From an uncultured Schumannella sp. (GTDB lineage: Bacteria > Actinomycetota > Actinomycetes > Actinomycetales > Microbacteriaceae): 64,000 nucleotides of DNA. Under the pieces are notes generated by a model, which did not search any database, was not told where the DNA came from, and saw nothing but the letters and a program-made list of their open reading frames with translations. Within the stretch, counting starts at the first letter, position 1. Each line of letters begins with the position of its first letter. Where the stretch lies: the NCBI RefSeq assembly GCF_905479755.1, contig NZ_CAJQNT010000029.1, positions 1 to 64,000 on the forward strand. The letters run 5' to 3'. Made by a program: the position numbers and the translations under genes. Positions 23,896 through 29,831 of this stretch are shown one piece after another.

Positions 23896-24333
23896 CTAGC
23901 GACGGAAGTCGCGACGCGAGTCCATGACCTCATTCGCGAGCTTGTCGGCGCGCGAATTCTCGGCTCGCGGAATCCACTCGAACGCCACCGGTGTGCCGGT
24001 GAGCACCTGGCGGGCTTCGGCCGCCAGCGCCGCCATGTCGGGATGCTTGATCTTCCACCGACCGGACATCTGTTCCACCACGAGCTTCGAATCCATGCGA
24101 ACGCGCAGCACCGCCTCCGGGTCCAGCTCGATCGCGGCGCGCACCCCCGCGATCATGCCCTTGTACTCGGCCACGTTGTTGCTCGCGATGCCGACGTAGA
24201 GTCCCAGCTCGGCGAGCACCTCCCCCGTTGCGGCATCGATGACGAGCGCGCCGCTCCCGGCCTGCCCGGGGTTGCCGCGCGATCCGCCATCCGCTTCGAC
24301 GATCAATTCACGGACGCCGCCGCTCGTTGTCAC
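23896..24333 (-). CDS. rnhA: Ribonuclease HI
   Basis: 145 residues. It cleaves the RNA of RNA-DNA hybrids. The catalytic acids are Asp15 (EADGGSRGN), Glu56 (NNVAEYKG), Asp81 (RMDSKLVVEQM) and Asp130 (SRADKLAN). The GTG start at 24333 overlaps the upstream stop (GTGA), so it is translationally coupled to the coiled-coil gene; a longer in-frame start at 24381 lies inside that gene. This compact form resembles the RNase H domain that some actinobacteria fuse to CobC-like phosphatase; no phosphatase domain is present here. Confidence 0.92.
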   Translation of the reverse strand: MTTSGGVRELIVEADGGSRGNPGQAGSGALVIDAATGEVLAELGLYVGIASNNVAEYKGMIAGVRAAIELDPEAVLRVRMDSKLVVEQMSGRWKIKHPDMAALAAEARQVLTGTPVAFEWIPRAENSRADKLANEVMDSRRDFRR

Positions 24334-25070
24334 AGCCCGGACTCCGCCGTGCGGATCAGCACGGCGTTCGAATCGGGGCACAACAGCACCGCGTCGGGGG
24401 CCGCCGCACGAACCGCGCCGAGATCGGTGGAGTTCAGCGCCACCCCGCTCGCGCTCGAGACGCCGCCGCGCAGCAGCGACGCTCCGACGCCGTAGCGTTC
24501 GCGCTGCTTCTCGTAGAGGGCGAGCAGATCTGCCGGAACCTTGCCCGCGACGGTCGCGCGGTTGGCTTCCGCATGCCGCCGGTCCGCGGCGAGGGCGTCG
24601 AGAGCCGCATCCCTCGCGGCAACCGCGGTCGCGATGCGCTCGTCGAGCTCGGCCAGTTCGGCGCGGGTGGCCGCCAGTTCGGCGTCGCGCGCCTCCGCTG
24701 CCTCCATCACGGCGAGCTCGATGTCCTCGAGGTCGGACTTGCGATTCGCGAGCGCCGCGAGCTCCTGCTCGAAGGCCTGAATGTCTTTGACCGAGCTGCT
24801 GGACTGCAAACGTTCCCGGTCGCGCGCGATCCGAGCATCGACCACCTCGACATCGGACTCGGTTCGTCGCAGCTCGAGCTTGGCGTCCTCGGCCGCTCCG
24901 GTCTGCTCGATGGCGCGCCGCTGGATCGCCTCACGTGCCGCGGTGAGTTCGGTGACGACGCTCGCCTCCGGCAGGGTCGAGGCGCGATGCGCCAGCTGCT
25001 GAAGCTTCGTGTCGAGCGCCTGTAGATCAAGCAGCAGGGCCTGATCCTCGGGGGCTGCCGTCAACGCCAT
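24330..25070 (-). CDS. Coiled-coil protein with degenerate C-terminal zinc ribbon
   Basis: 246 residues. A long antiparallel coiled coil (about residues 10-180, many heptads of Leu, Ala and Glu) ends in the region where relatives carry a four-Cys zinc ribbon. Here the first Cys pair is replaced (GGVSSASGVAL) and only one Cys remains of the second (LLCPDSNAVLIRT). Metal binding is therefore lost while the fold is probably kept. The family is a conserved nucleic-acid-associated group of unknown role, often next to nif3 and rnhA as here. The Nif3 gene ends 13 bases upstream. Confidence 0.85.
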   Translation of the reverse strand: MALTAAPEDQALLLDLQALDTKLQQLAHRASTLPEASVVTELTAAREAIQRRAIEQTGAAEDAKLELRRTESDVEVVDARIARDRERLQSSSSVKDIQAFEQELAALANRKSDLEDIELAVMEAAEARDAELAATRAELAELDERIATAVAARDAALDALAADRRHAEANRATVAGKVPADLLALYEKQRERYGVGASLLRGGVSSASGVALNSTDLGAVRAAAPDAVLLCPDSNAVLIRTAESGL

Positions 25071-25083
25071 GATTTCTCCTTCA

Positions 25084-25902
25084 TTACACGATCGCAAAGT
25101 CCCACGGGTCGGTGCGCACGTCGCTGACGAGCACCTCCACCGTCGGGAGCGCGGCGCGCAGTTGCGCCGCCGCCGTATCCAGCCACAACCACTCGCTCGC
25201 CCAGTGCGAGACATCCAACAAAGCAGGCCCGCCGCGAAGCCGCGCAGCTTCGCGCGCCTCGGAGGCAGGGTGGTGGCGCAAGTCACTCGTGATGTAGACG
25301 TCCGCCGAGCGGACACTCGGATGAGCCAGGAACGAGTCGCCCGAGCCCGCACACAGCGCGACCGTGGCAACCGGTTGATCGAACTCCCCTGAGGCGCGAA
25401 CGCCCTGCGCCGTCGCCGGCAGCACGTCGGCGAGAGCTCGCGCGAGAGCGCCGAGCGTCGTCGGCTCGGCCAGGCGCCCGACACGTCCGAGCCCCAGCTC
25501 CGCGTCGGCATCCGAAGGCACGATCGGGCGCACCTCGACGAGACCCAGACGCTCGGCAAGAACGGCCGAGGTGCCGCTCGCCACGATGTCGGCGTTCGTG
25601 TGGGCCGCGATCAGCGCGCACCCGCCGCGAATCAGACGGGAGACGACGGCACCCTTGTACGTGTCTTCGGCGACGGAGGTGACGCCGCGCAAGAACAGCG
25701 GGTGATGTGCGAGCAGCACCTGAGCCCCACCCGCGACGGCCTCGTCGGCGGTCTCGATGACGGCATCGACGGCGAGGAGGATCCGGGTGACCTCGGTCGC
25801 CGGATCGCCGGCCAGGAGTCCGGGAGCATCCCAGCCTTCGGCGGAGCCGATCGGCCAGAGCGACTCGACCGCATCCGTGACATCGGCGAGCGTGGGAGGC
25901 AT
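25084..25902 (-). CDS. Nif3-like dinuclear metal centre protein
   Basis: 272 residues. The family's metal ligands appear as LLAHHPLFLRG, ALIAAHTNADI, and late DLRHHPASEA and DVSHWASEW segments. Members form hexameric rings; some have been assigned GTP cyclohydrolase I type 2 or other hydrolase activities, so the substrate stays open. The ATG follows TAGACT by 6 bases. It heads the Nif3, coiled-coil, rnhA run. Confidence 0.92.
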   Translation of the reverse strand: MPPTLADVTDAVESLWPIGSAEGWDAPGLLAGDPATEVTRILLAVDAVIETADEAVAGGAQVLLAHHPLFLRGVTSVAEDTYKGAVVSRLIRGGCALIAAHTNADIVASGTSAVLAERLGLVEVRPIVPSDADAELGLGRVGRLAEPTTLGALARALADVLPATAQGVRASGEFDQPVATVALCAGSGDSFLAHPSVRSADVYITSDLRHHPASEAREAARLRGGPALLDVSHWASEWLWLDTAAAQLRAALPTVEVLVSDVRTDPWDFAIV

Positions 25903-25924: not shown

Positions 25925-28903
25925 TCAGGCCGGGGCGCCGCCGCGCGGCGTGCTGATCGCGCCCGTGTGGATCACCGAGTCCGCGGAGACACTGCGCTCT
26001 TGCCGACGCACGGACGGCAGCGCCGTCGCGAGGGTGGCAACCAGCCCGAGGGCAAGCGCCACGAAGACGCCGACATTGCTCGTTGCCCAGAGCTCGCCCG
26101 CCCCGATGCCGAGCGGAGCGAACAGGAAGCCCTGCCACGACAGCCACGACACCTCCGCCGAGGTGAGCCCCCAGCCGAGAGCCGTCGCCAAGACAAGAAT
26201 GGCGAGGTTGCCCCACCGCACGTCGGGGTAGTGCCGCCCGCGCTCCAGCAACGACGAGGCGTCCAGGCGCGTGCTGCGGAACATCATCTCGGCCGCAAGA
26301 ATCCCGACCCACGCCGAGACGGGCACGGCGATCGTGATGATCAAATCGAACAGGATCTCCCCCGGCTCCACCGCCAGGAACGCGAGCGCCGCCGCGACGA
26401 GCGCGACCAGCACCACCGCGAGCACCGTCGTCGAGGTGCGGGATGCGCGGATCCCGAGCGATTGGATCGCGAAGCCGCCCGAGTAGCTGGCGAGTGTCGC
26501 CGCCGAGATCAACCCGATGCCGACGGCGAGCACCAGAGGAATCGGGTACCACAGCGGCAGGAGCGACGCGAGGGCGCCGATCGGATCCAGGATCAGCGCC
26601 GCCCCGAGCGCCGGATCGGAGGCGGCGAGCAGCGCGCCCCAGGCGATCAGGGCGAAGGCGGGCAGCGTCGCTCCGAAGGAACTCGAGAGCATCGCCGCCC
26701 CACCCCAGCCATCGGGACGCTGATAGCGCGCGAGATCACCGGTCGACTGCGCCCAGGCGAGGCCCACCACGCTGAAGACGAGCGCGGCGCCGGGCACCAC
26801 GAGCAACCAGGAGCCGTCCCCCAGCGTCAGAGCGGTGCCGAAGTCCAGGCGCGGCGCGGTGAGCGCGATCACGCCGACGATCAGGATGACGGAGGCGATC
26901 GTCGACACGAGGTGGACGAGCGCGAGCAGCCCGTAGCCGACGACCGACACCGTGGCGATCACGATGACGCCGACGATGATGCCGAGGAAGGTCCACAACT
27001 CGACGCCGAGACCGGGGTCGACTCCCGCGAGCTCGACGATGTGCGCGGCGCTGGCGGCAAACAACCACAGCAGCGCCCCGCCCCAGAAGATGCGGGTGGC
27101 CAGAGCGAGCACGGCCGGGCCCAGGTTGCCGAGGTGCCCGAAGACCGCACGCGAGACCACCATGACCGGCTGCCCCGTCCACTTGCCGGCGAGCGTGCCG
27201 AATCCGAGCGGAATCCAGGAGACCGCCACGCCGGTGAGCGCGGCCACGATCGCCTGACGCAGGCTCATTCCCGAGGCGGCGAGGATCGCTCCCACGGCGA
27301 TCGAGATGACCGACGCGTTCGGCGCGAACCACAGCCAGAACAGGCGCACCGAGCGGCCGGCGCGGCGATCCAAGGGGGTCGGCTCGATGCCGGTCGCCTC
27401 GATCTCGCCGGCGCGCGGAACGCGACGCGCCTGCGCCGCGAGAAGGGGGTCATCGTCTGCGACCCGCTGCACGGCGATCGGCTCCGACGGGGGCGCAAGC
27501 ACATCGGCGATGCCCGCCGTGCCGACCGCGATCGGAACGGATCCCGTCAACCGGTCGACATCGTCGACGACGTCGTCGTTCTCGGCGTCGAGATCGACGT
27601 CCTGCGCGATCGGAGACGGCGGGGGCACGAAGGCCCGGGGCACCGTGCGGTCGTCGAACTCCTGCGGGAGCGGTGCGACCGTCCCCGGGAGCGGTTCGCT
27701 CGGTGTCGCCTCCGGGGCGGGGGCGACCTCCTCGCTCGACGGGACATAGGGCGGAATGTCGGCAGGCTCGATCCCGATCGGTGGCGGCATCGAGCTGAAG
27801 TCGAGCACGGGCGGAAGCTCATCGAGATCGTCGGCGTCGACGTCCTCCGCGGGTTCCGTCGGCATCGGGGCCGGCATCGGTGGCTCAATCGGAGCCGACG
27901 GCGGCGTCAGCGGCGGCTCGACGAGCTCGGGGTCGAGCACGATTGCCTCCGGGTCCGGCGGTGGCATCGGCGGGCGCGCGGTGGGCACCTCCCCCGAGGC
28001 GGGGAAGGCCGGCGGCTCCACGAGCAGCGGTGGCCCGTCGTCGACCGGGGCGAAACGCGACACGACAGGTGCGGATGCATCGGGCGGGCTCGCCTGATCG
28101 TCCGGTTCGAGCGCTTCGTCGGCGCGAAGCCTGGGACCACCCGGAAGCGTGACCGCTCCGGTGGCGAGCGCCTCTTGCCAGGCGCGGAAAGCCTCCGGGT
28201 CCTCCTCGCGGAGACGCAGCTGCTGTTCGAGGATCTCGATCGCCGCGAGAGTCGAGCTCGTGCCCATCACCGAATCGAGGTCGGTCTCGTCCCCGGTGAT
28301 CGCAGAAGCGGGACTCGGCTCCGGTTCGACGAGCGCGACCGGCTCCCGGGGAATCGGGAGGTCGTGAAACGAGTTCGGGTCGGGGTCGACGTCCTGCGCG
28401 TCCGGCTCGAACGAATCGGGCGCGAACGAATCGGGCTCGAACGAATCGGGCTCCGACGAGAACGAGTCCGGCTCCTCGATCAAGGACCCGGGCACAGGCT
28501 CGGGCGCCACATACTCGGGCTCGGGTTCCGGCGCGGGCTCGGGCTCGGGCTCGGGCTGATCGGATTCCGGCTCGAAGTCCGGGAGCGGCAAGAACTCGTC
28601 GTTGTCGTCGTTGTCGTCGTTGTCGTTGTCGTTGTCATCGTCGTCCGGCAGAACCGGAGCGACCTCGGCCGACGGCACAACAGGAATCGGAGCGGTGTAG
28701 GTCGAGAACTGCGCCGCGAGCGCATCCGCGATGGCATCGTCGTCGGTGAGCTCCGGTTGCTCGTTCTCGACGTCGGAAGCCGAGGCGACACCCGACGTCT
28801 CCCGGGGCAACGGAGTGAACGTCGAACGGCGCTTGCCTGTCGGCTCGGCGTCGTCCACGGAGTCGGGCTCCGCGTCACCTGTGCCGAATGGAGCGTCGGT
28901 CAT
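25925..28903 (-). CDS. NCS1-like permease with a giant acidic N-terminal extension
   Basis: 992 residues. The C-terminal part (about 520-970) has ten to twelve membrane segments and resembles the nucleobase/cation symporter-1 family: LFWLWFAPNASVISIAVG, IPLGFGTLAGKWTGQP and STGDLARYQRP. The first 520 residues are predicted cytoplasmic and largely disordered: an Asp/Asn run encoded by GTTGTC repeats near 28600, Pro-Glu repeats, and a repeated DSFEP/DSFAP unit near 28400-28470. One helical segment, LAAIEILEQQLRLREEDPEAF, looks structured. Ordinary permeases of this family have about 450 residues. The substrate is unknown. ATG 28903 is preferred to a start at 28927. Confidence 0.8.
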   Translation of the reverse strand: MTDAPFGTGDAEPDSVDDAEPTGKRRSTFTPLPRETSGVASASDVENEQPELTDDDAIADALAAQFSTYTAPIPVVPSAEVAPVLPDDDDNDNDNDDNDDNDEFLPLPDFEPESDQPEPEPEPAPEPEPEYVAPEPVPGSLIEEPDSFSSEPDSFEPDSFAPDSFEPDAQDVDPDPNSFHDLPIPREPVALVEPEPSPASAITGDETDLDSVMGTSSTLAAIEILEQQLRLREEDPEAFRAWQEALATGAVTLPGGPRLRADEALEPDDQASPPDASAPVVSRFAPVDDGPPLLVEPPAFPASGEVPTARPPMPPPDPEAIVLDPELVEPPLTPPSAPIEPPMPAPMPTEPAEDVDADDLDELPPVLDFSSMPPPIGIEPADIPPYVPSSEEVAPAPEATPSEPLPGTVAPLPQEFDDRTVPRAFVPPPSPIAQDVDLDAENDDVVDDVDRLTGSVPIAVGTAGIADVLAPPSEPIAVQRVADDDPLLAAQARRVPRAGEIEATGIEPTPLDRRAGRSVRLFWLWFAPNASVISIAVGAILAASGMSLRQAIVAALTGVAVSWIPLGFGTLAGKWTGQPVMVVSRAVFGHLGNLGPAVLALATRIFWGGALLWLFAASAAHIVELAGVDPGLGVELWTFLGIIVGVIVIATVSVVGYGLLALVHLVSTIASVILIVGVIALTAPRLDFGTALTLGDGSWLLVVPGAALVFSVVGLAWAQSTGDLARYQRPDGWGGAAMLSSSFGATLPAFALIAWGALLAASDPALGAALILDPIGALASLLPLWYPIPLVLAVGIGLISAATLASYSGGFAIQSLGIRASRTSTTVLAVVLVALVAAALAFLAVEPGEILFDLIITIAVPVSAWVGILAAEMMFRSTRLDASSLLERGRHYPDVRWGNLAILVLATALGWGLTSAEVSWLSWQGFLFAPLGIGAGELWATSNVGVFVALALGLVATLATALPSVRRQERSVSADSVIHTGAISTPRGGAPA
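28590..28645. repeat. GTTGTC/GTCGTC microsatellite inside the permease gene
   Basis: Tandem GTTGTCGTC-type units encode alternating Asp and Asn. The unit is a multiple of three, so length changes would alter the acidic tract without breaking the frame. Confidence 0.7.
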
Positions 28904-28913
28904 GCCTGAAAGC

Positions 28914-29831
28914 CTAGATGCGCTCACTCACGAATGGGGTACGACGAGCCGACACGAGAACAGATAGTCCGAGCAGGATCAGCGCGACTCCGCCCCACCC
29001 CAGAGGGGCGAGCCTCTCCCCGACGACAACCACCGCGAGCAGTGTCGCCACCACCGGTTCCAGGAGCGTGATCGTCGTAACGTGTGAACTGCGGAGCTCC
29101 CGCACCCCGATCCCGAACAGCAGGTAGGCCAGCACCATGGGGCCGAGCACGAGGTAGCCCGCGATGCCCACGGTGTCGGGCGACTGCAGCAACGGAGCTC
29201 CGGTCGCGGCGAGAACAGGCACGAGCGCAACGCCGCCGAGCCCGAACATCGCGGCCATCACCCCGCGACTGGTTCCGCCCGCGGCGATCGCCCGACCGGA
29301 TGCGTAGGTGTACAGCGCGTACGCGAGGCCAGCGACCAGCGCCACCGCGATCCCCGCGAAGGGGGCATCTCCGGCGCGCCCCTCGCCCGACTCCGTGTCG
29401 CCGAAGAGGGCCCGGCTGGTCGCAAGCGCGGCGATGCCAACGACCGCGAGCGCGGTCGCGATCAGCCAGCGCCGCGACAGCGGCCGCCGCTCCAGGAGCC
29501 ACTCGAGGAGCGCGGAGAAGACAGGCCCGGAGCCCAGCGCGACCACGTTCCCGACCGCAACCCCCGCCAGGTCCATCCCGCTGTAGAACGCGAGCGGGTA
29601 CACGACGACGCCGAGGGCCCCGAGCGCCACCCATCGACGCGGCACTCGGCTCCGCAACACGGAAACAGCCCGGCGCCCGGCGAGGGCGAAGAGAACGATC
29701 CCGCCGATGCCCATCGTGGCCGATCCGACCGCGATGGGGCTGACGTCGTCAGGGAAGAAGCTCGCCGCGGTGCCGGTCGTTCCCCACAGCGCGGACGCCA
29801 GCACGAGAGCAAGCACGGCGCCCGGATTCAC
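28914..29831 (-). CDS. DMT/EamA family transporter
   Basis: 305 residues with ten predicted membrane segments, in two EamA repeats. It opens with VLALVLASALWGTTGTAASFF and has the second repeat signature ALLQSPDTVGIAGYLVLG...VTTITLLEPVVATLLAVVVVGE. Such exporters move small metabolites or drugs; the substrate cannot be inferred. The GTG start at 29831 has GAGAGGAG upstream. The permease gene follows after only 10 bases, so they may share a transcript. Confidence 0.88.
   Translation of the reverse strand: MNPGAVLALVLASALWGTTGTAASFFPDDVSPIAVGSATMGIGGIVLFALAGRRAVSVLRSRVPRRWVALGALGVVVYPLAFYSGMDLAGVAVGNVVALGSGPVFSALLEWLLERRPLSRRWLIATALAVVGIAALATSRALFGDTESGEGRAGDAPFAGIAVALVAGLAYALYTYASGRAIAAGGTSRGVMAAMFGLGGVALVPVLAATGAPLLQSPDTVGIAGYLVLGPMVLAYLLFGIGVRELRSSHVTTITLLEPVVATLLAVVVVGERLAPLGWGGVALILLGLSVLVSARRTPFVSERI

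Follow-up and report, generated by a model that had tools for sequence, protein, structure and literature searches.

RESULTS

The Gene and Its Elements

The DNA analyzed here (the window) is a stretch of 64,000 nucleotides from an uncultured Schumannella sp. of the Microbacteriaceae (contig NZ_CAJQNT010000029.1, positions 1 to 64,000), and the subject of this report is a minus-strand gene at 25925-28903 that encodes about 500 acidic, proline-rich residues followed by a CodB/Mhp1-fold permease of the NCS1 family (PF02133). The segment is one uninterrupted open reading frame (ORF) of 992 residues beginning with the ATG at 28903, and the frame, coordinates, and composition given in an earlier note, made from the sequence without database searches, were correct. 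The same note put the N-terminal extension at 520 residues; a long extension is indeed present, but it comprises 499 residues ahead of the aligned membrane region. Residues 1-499 include 96 Pro, 65 Asp, 51 Glu, 18 Arg, and 1 Lys and have a net charge of −97, and searches of Pfam, NCBIfam, and the PDB with the whole protein gave no known domain in the tail. By analogy with NCS1 topology the tail would be cytoplasmic, and structure prediction suggests that it is disordered. The main elements of the gene are as follows; dN/dS is the ratio of nonsynonymous to synonymous substitution rates, pLDDT is the predicted local distance difference test score, AF2 is AlphaFold2, and TM denotes a transmembrane segment.

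25928..28903, minus strand: entire tailed-permease coding sequence of 992 aa, with its stop codon at 25925-25927 (ORF, Pfam, and tail dN/dS in relatives)
27407..28903, minus strand: N-terminal tail, residues 1-499, predicted to be disordered (composition; pLDDT mostly <50 outside two helical segments)
28802..28840, minus strand: motif M1, residues 22-34 (TGKRRSTFTPLPR), family consensus GPRRSTYTPPP (motif models and held-out test)
28673..28747, minus strand: motif M2, residues 53-77 (TDDDAIADALAAQFSTYTAPIPVVP), predicted short helix 54-67 (motif models, held-out test, and AF2)
28160..28258, minus strand: motif M3, residues 216-248, predicted to form a helical hairpin that holds the sole tail Trp (motif models, held-out test, and AF2)
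27344..27400, minus strand: junction before TM1, residues 502-520, E-x-x-G-x-E-P-T-P-x-x-x-R (alignment; E, T, and R columns invariant)
25976..27376, minus strand: NCS1 membrane domain, about residues 510-976 (Pfam, PDB profile, AF2, and Foldseek)
27083..27094, minus strand: Arg604 to Trp607 in TM3, the Trp aligned with a Trp of Mhp1 (alignment)

Conserved Motifs in the Tails of Orthologs

An ortholog, defined as a row at E 2.1e-78 or better, is present in 82 of 299 sampled Microbacteriaceae genomes. The loci that were read, in each of which the frame continues for 100 residues or more upstream of the membrane region, also number 82 (78 from the 299-genome sample and 4 from other contigs); the 71 frames uncut by the end of the stretch are termed complete tails, from which 11 left-cut frames are excluded. 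Rows L032-L035, which repeat genomes already included, were dropped, and G188 and G218 lie outside the set. Counting from the first ATG, the complete tails have 155-1226 residues (median 457) ahead of the membrane region, values that are upper bounds in some loci, such as L044 and L046, where by eye the first ATG apparently lies inside the preceding gene; the distance from the first detected motif to the membrane region is at least 140 residues in 70 of 70. Net charge is negative in 70 of the 71 complete tails (median −55), the exception being the apparently frameshifted L018, without which the range is −9 to −191. Ortholog tails diverge fast in both sequence and length, and no loss of the tail was found among the 71 complete frames.

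Three short motifs persist across these tails, with different lineages retaining different subsets. M1 lies near the N terminus, M2 has the family pattern DDDALADALAAE...TSSIPI with a predicted short helix, and the full form of M3 is TxxAIxxLExQLxLRExEAxxFxxWExxML, in which the Arg and Trp are invariant in 21 rows selected for being full. At E <0.001, M1 is found in 37, M2 in 56, and M3 in 42 of the complete tails; one or more are present in 70 of the 71, and all 47 that bear two or more keep the order M1, M2, M3. Outside the 42, a variant of M3 with Trp (e.g. ..RLDEATYREWEHSL) is seen by eye in seven Naasia-type loci. In a held-out test, in which the clusters at 60% identity were divided, one half serving to train the models and the other to score them, the match fractions (means of six splits) were 0.55 for M1, 0.82 for M2, and 0.55 for M3, against 0.02, 0.001, and 0 for shuffled tails. 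The distance from M3 to the membrane region has a median of 232 residues and a range of 108-824 in 42 tails, and no constraint on its length is evident.

Within the genomes searched, the motifs are largely peculiar to this protein. In 12 genomes picked for holding the ortholog, every M3 match at E <0.001 sits in the tailed permease (8 genomes), and M1-M2 matches at that threshold occur in nine, eight in the permease frame and one (G010) just upstream in another frame; matches in other proteins of the ortholog-bearing genomes are weak, with E above 0.01. Among 297 genomes of the order sample, M3 is matched at E 0.001 in one, the window's own genome. The most divergent ortholog, L089, from a genome of 1.4 Mb, has a 184-residue tail with M1 and M3. 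In L018, the locus of G010, the permease frame shows no motif, the tail motifs being placed just upstream of it in another frame; this genome is 86% complete, and the misplacement is an apparent frameshift in that assembly, real or artefact. C-terminal extensions were also seen: one of about 190 residues in L003/L032, of the window's genus, contains a GPRRTGSTS stretch that by eye resembles M1, and permease C-tails of 107 and 71 residues occur in L009 and L050, respectively, so that some lineages may have added tails at both ends.

Translation of the Tail

Selection on the tail was estimated from 44 close ortholog pairs with membrane identity above 72%. Tail dN/dS in frame is below 1 in all 42 pairs with a defined value (0.11-0.69), two further pairs being undefined. 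Evolution is much slower in the membrane half than in the tail; for the three pairs whose tail dS is <0.5, the tail values are 0.27, 0.30, and 0.28, as compared with 0.02, 0.18, and 0.14 for the membrane half. When the aligned tail DNA of seven pairs was read in six frames, the coding frame gave dN/dS of 0.18-0.39 and the +1, +2, rev0, and rev2 frames 1.2-2.7, with stop codons in 27 of these 28 readings, whereas the reverse frame that shares wobble positions gave 0.26-0.48, as expected, with stops in six of the seven pairs. Because the tail is under selection as protein and the frame runs on to TM1 with no stop codon, cells should make the fused protein, and exclusive translation from an internal start near residue 500, raised in the earlier note as the finding that would overturn its view of the protein, is not supported.

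The window's own ATG lacks a Shine-Dalgarno match of 4 bases, whereas GGAG stands before a GTG at residue 478, which could give an additional short form; among the 71 loci, a match of at least 4 bases is found before the first ATG in 5 and before an internal ATG or GTG in 19. In a comparison of ribosome-site energies for tail starts, internal starts, starts of the neighboring NIF3 genes, and random codons, the internal starts equal the chance best of n (fraction at −5 or below 0.51 observed and 0.54 expected). However, the NIF3 starts, intended as the positive control, score no better than background, and the energy test is therefore uninformative.

Distribution of the Fusion

The earlier note had proposed a search for relatives with the same domain join, and the fusion of tail and permease is found across Microbacteriaceae orthologs, in 71 uncut frames. 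In contrast, the candidate starts in six short NCS1 paralogs from the family lie 8-26 residues ahead of the membrane region. In a quick tree, a single branch parts 85 tailed from 21 short NCS1 rows (SH-aLRT 100; 1 change, with 0 of 500 shuffles as low); three rows counted as tailed (L036, L019, and L052) come from contigs that end just before TM1, their tails being unseen, and L089 is on a long branch. Genome G550 has two short NCS1 paralogs with identical scores on separate contigs (C18:3428-4873 and C28:939-2384), perhaps a recent duplication or an assembly repeat.

When the tailed-clade profile was run against the 297-genome order sample, a search that could miss a very divergent tailed protein, matches beyond the window's own protein reached at most 389 bits. 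Several order-level NCS1 genes sit in open frames of 800-1363 aa, and 13 regions from outside the family (11 with long frames and 2 high scorers) encode proteins at 31-35% identity. These long frames were considered as tails and rejected: by eye the upstream frames look unrelated to the tails, and every one of the regions offers a possible ATG or GTG start within about 60 residues of the membrane region. They are taken as chance open frames in GC-rich DNA.

Predicted Structure of the Tail

In the AF2 model of the window protein nearly all of the tail has pLDDT <50. The predicted exceptions are the M2 helix at 54-67 (pLDDT about 55) and the M3 hairpin at 216-234/236-248, with block pLDDT up to 90. 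The earlier note had listed one short helical segment; the hairpin at 216-248 is predicted, but a second, weaker helix at 54-67 had escaped it. The model of a Naasia ortholog has a corresponding M2 helix at 30-44 (pLDDT about 60) and M3 hairpin at 217-231/236-251 (block pLDDT up to 74), together with a poorly scored helix at 55-62. Both models were built from the same ten sequences. Because these alignments are shallow and the predicted TM-score (pTM) is about 0.5, the placement of the tail relative to the membrane domain is uninformative.

Membrane Domain and Possible Substrate

The classification of the membrane half as an NCS1-type carrier, made in the earlier note, is borne out by three comparisons. 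PF02133 matches residues 510-920 with 66 bits against a gathering score of 23.5, a profile of 52 membrane halves matches Mhp1 in the PDB at E 6e-12, and in a Foldseek search with the predicted model CodB (7qoa) and Mhp1 entries rank best (TMt 0.58-0.74). The score for the ncs1 subfamily TIGR00800, 55.8 bits, is far under its curated cut-off of 353.1. All NCS1 members are described as sharing an N-X-D/S-hydrophobic-X-P motif about 10 residues before TM1, according to the relevant part of PMC6597760; the G-x-E-P-T-P of the junction in the tailed clade has, by eye, the same place and the last Pro, but differs from the consensus.

The Trp of TM3 is conserved in at least 90% of ortholog rows and aligns with W117, the substrate-stacking Trp of Mhp1. 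In CodB, Trp108 of TM3 stacks on the substrate (PMC9379551, in the part concerned). Three residues before the Trp, at the position of CodB Gln105 as counted by eye from the Trp, the ortholog rows have an Arg that is conserved in at least 90%; such a near-invariant Arg one helical turn before the substrate-stacking Trp is unlike both CodB and Mhp1 and is a possible mark of a new substrate class. Gln121 of Mhp1 and Asn318, the latter a ligand residue, are not retained in the tailed-clade alignment. At the hydroxyl pair of the Na2 site in TM8 (CodB Thr278/Thr279), the alignment is gapped; read by eye, it places Ser opposite one of the two residues and a hydrophobic residue opposite the other. Because of the Arg and the absence of the two Mhp1 residues, the substrate is probably neither cytosine nor hydantoin; it is possibly an anion.

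Spacer Repeats and Neighboring Genes

The repeats that the earlier note named in the tail are real tandem arrays by Tandem Repeats Finder:

28596..28645, minus strand: Asp-Asn repeat, lineage-specific spacer, absent from seven aligned relatives
28514..28557, minus strand: Pro-Glu repeat, spacer
28404..28453, minus strand: DSFEP/DSFAP repeat, spacer

Tandem arrays occur in 55 of 71 complete ortholog tails versus 20 of 71 membrane halves, and 169 of 174 arrays have periods divisible by three. The emphasis placed on such microsatellites is nevertheless not supported, the repeats being lineage-specific spacer and the three short motifs being what relatives share instead. The genes around the permease are the following:

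28914..29831, minus strand: EamA-type transporter gene, upstream, ending 10 nt before the permease ATG
25084..25902, minus strand: DUF34/NIF3 gene, conserved downstream neighbor
24330..25073, minus strand: CT398-like coiled-coil gene (PF24481), conserved second neighbor

At the 81 testable tailed loci, within the stretch examined, same-strand downstream neighbors include NIF3 in 73, CT398 in 76, and either in 80, the remaining locus being L076; at the short-paralog loci these genes were seen in 0 of 6. Both types of gene lie downstream even in L089, and in the seven Naasia-type loci CT398 was found and NIF3 was not, within the stretch examined. CT398, a coiled-coil hairpin protein, is by location only a candidate partner for M3.

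DISCUSSION

The tails vary widely in length and yet keep a few short motifs. This pattern is that of a disordered region carrying linear motifs, and it suggests that the tail is not junk but a functional arm for docking or control. The reading that we prefer, with a probability of roughly 0.6 and resting on sequence comparison and structure models, is that a disordered cytoplasmic arm presents docking motifs to a cytosolic partner and thereby tethers or regulates an NCS1 carrier. The N terminus of an NCS1-fold carrier would have become a long disordered arm bearing up to three docking elements in fixed order: a basic Ser/Thr-Pro peptide (M1), a short acidic-capped helix (M2), and a helical hairpin (M3), spaced by a fast-evolving, often repeat-expanded acidic Pro/Ala/Glu spacer. 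These elements would most likely have one or more cytosolic proteins as partners, through which the carrier is tethered, localized, or switched, and M1 may plausibly be a phosphorylation or charge-controlled site. It is in this sense that we infer partner binding and regulation of the carrier by the tail. The earlier note had suggested a sensor, tether, or regulatory tail, of which the tether or regulatory role stands as the best reading, although not with the repeats as its key feature.

Several observations weigh against this interpretation. At E <0.001, only 18 of the 71 complete tails have all three motifs and 23 have just one, so that the arm is no single fixed machine, and among the 42 M3 matches 31 extend to the Trp, the other 11 being confined to the first half. 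It should be noted that the sequences tested were also those on which the motif models had first been trained, that the training pieces of the held-out test were taken from that model, and that M1 is short, 2% of shuffled tails reaching its threshold. Searches of the PDB and Pfam with the motif profiles gave no significant match (the best in Pfam, E 0.0045 to a coiled coil, was for 1 of 21 rows) and pointed to no partner, and the conserved synteny with NIF3 and CT398 indicates shared ancestry of the locus, not interaction.

The arm could instead serve the permease itself, with M2, M3, and the acidic chain folding onto its cytoplasmic face to gate transport without an outside partner. Tails of NCS1 and other LeuT-fold carriers, FurE and BetP among them, act in this way elsewhere, according to parts of PMC6597760 and PMC10710835, and M3 is predicted as an isolated, well-scored element, but its long and apparently unconstrained distance from the membrane region suits a tether better than a close gate, and we regard self-regulation as unlikely. 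It is improbable that the chain is a physicochemical sensor reading ionic strength, crowding, or osmolarity through its charge and bulk, as has been proposed for osmosensing carriers; the nearly uniform negative charge of the tails would agree with this, but bulk sensing needs no ordered, sequence-specific motifs, and tail length and charge are widely spread. It is very unlikely that the extension is a tolerated, repeat-expanded product of drift and that an internal start, such as GTG 478, yields a permease of normal length. The abundance of tandem arrays and the ribosome-site matches described above would agree with this, but the internal starts score as chance does and the control starts no better than background, and coding-frame selection, motif conservation in held-out sequences, and the retention of the tail in every complete frame oppose it.

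Two further proposals give the neighboring genes a part. In one, the protein has lost transport or keeps it as a secondary function, and it acts as a receptor or scaffold in the membrane (transceptor) that signals to the products of NIF3 and CT398. The neighborhood is kept at 80 of 81 loci and the pocket differs at the TM3 Arg; however, neighborhood does not show interaction, and the membrane half behaves as that of an active carrier would, changing far less rapidly than the tail and retaining both the family fold and the TM3 Trp, which makes this suggestion highly doubtful. A broader and still unlikely version holds that across the lineage the arm, which in many members accounts for at least half of the protein, recruits cytosolic proteins, perhaps those same products, through M1-M3 and relays substrate binding to a cytosolic process. 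If this were true, a bacterial secondary carrier would have a motif-bearing tail of eukaryotic style.

The preferred reading, a docking arm on a carrier, has parallels among tail-regulated carriers, and the view of the earlier note that characterized carriers offer no obvious counterpart was too strong. NKCC1 and NCC are LeuT-fold carriers with long N-terminal tails that bear kinase docking and phosphorylation sites, but they are eukaryotic, belong to another family, and have a folded C-terminal domain. They are among the lower-ranked Foldseek matches of the window protein's model. The tails of BetP from Corynebacterium glutamicum are tens of residues long and the N-terminal one is acidic. BetP is, like the permease described here, an actinobacterial LeuT-fold carrier, with N- and C-terminal extensions that function in osmoregulation (PMC10710835 and PMC6597760, in the parts concerned), but it is of another family (BCCT). 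In fungal FurE and its kin, cytosolic tails contain short elements that control specificity, turnover, and endoplasmic reticulum exit, as described in part of PMC6597760; the FurE N-tail has 38 residues. The tailed clade may work like these carriers.

CodB and Mhp1 are the closest known counterparts in the membrane half, by Pfam, profile, fold, and the retained TM3 Trp, and the tailed clade differs from CodB in its Arg at the Gln105 position. The termini are a second difference. Prokaryotic carriers of the APC type, NCS1 included, are described in PMC6597760, in the part concerned, as having termini that are shorter than eukaryotic ones and in some families practically absent, and the relevant parts of that paper and of PMC10710835 report no tail of comparable length in a bacterial NCS1 carrier. 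No literature on the tailed clade was found among open-access publications, most subscription journals being outside the scope of the search. The protein is rated as a known carrier fold with an unusual, conserved disordered arm. The clade departs from the short-terminus description of prokaryotic NCS1 carriers in retaining a tail that mostly has hundreds of residues, and the near-invariant TM3 Arg is a further mark of this transport clade. The Arg and Trp of M3 and the Ser/Thr-Pro of M1 are candidate sites for a possible posttranslational control of carriers in bacteria.

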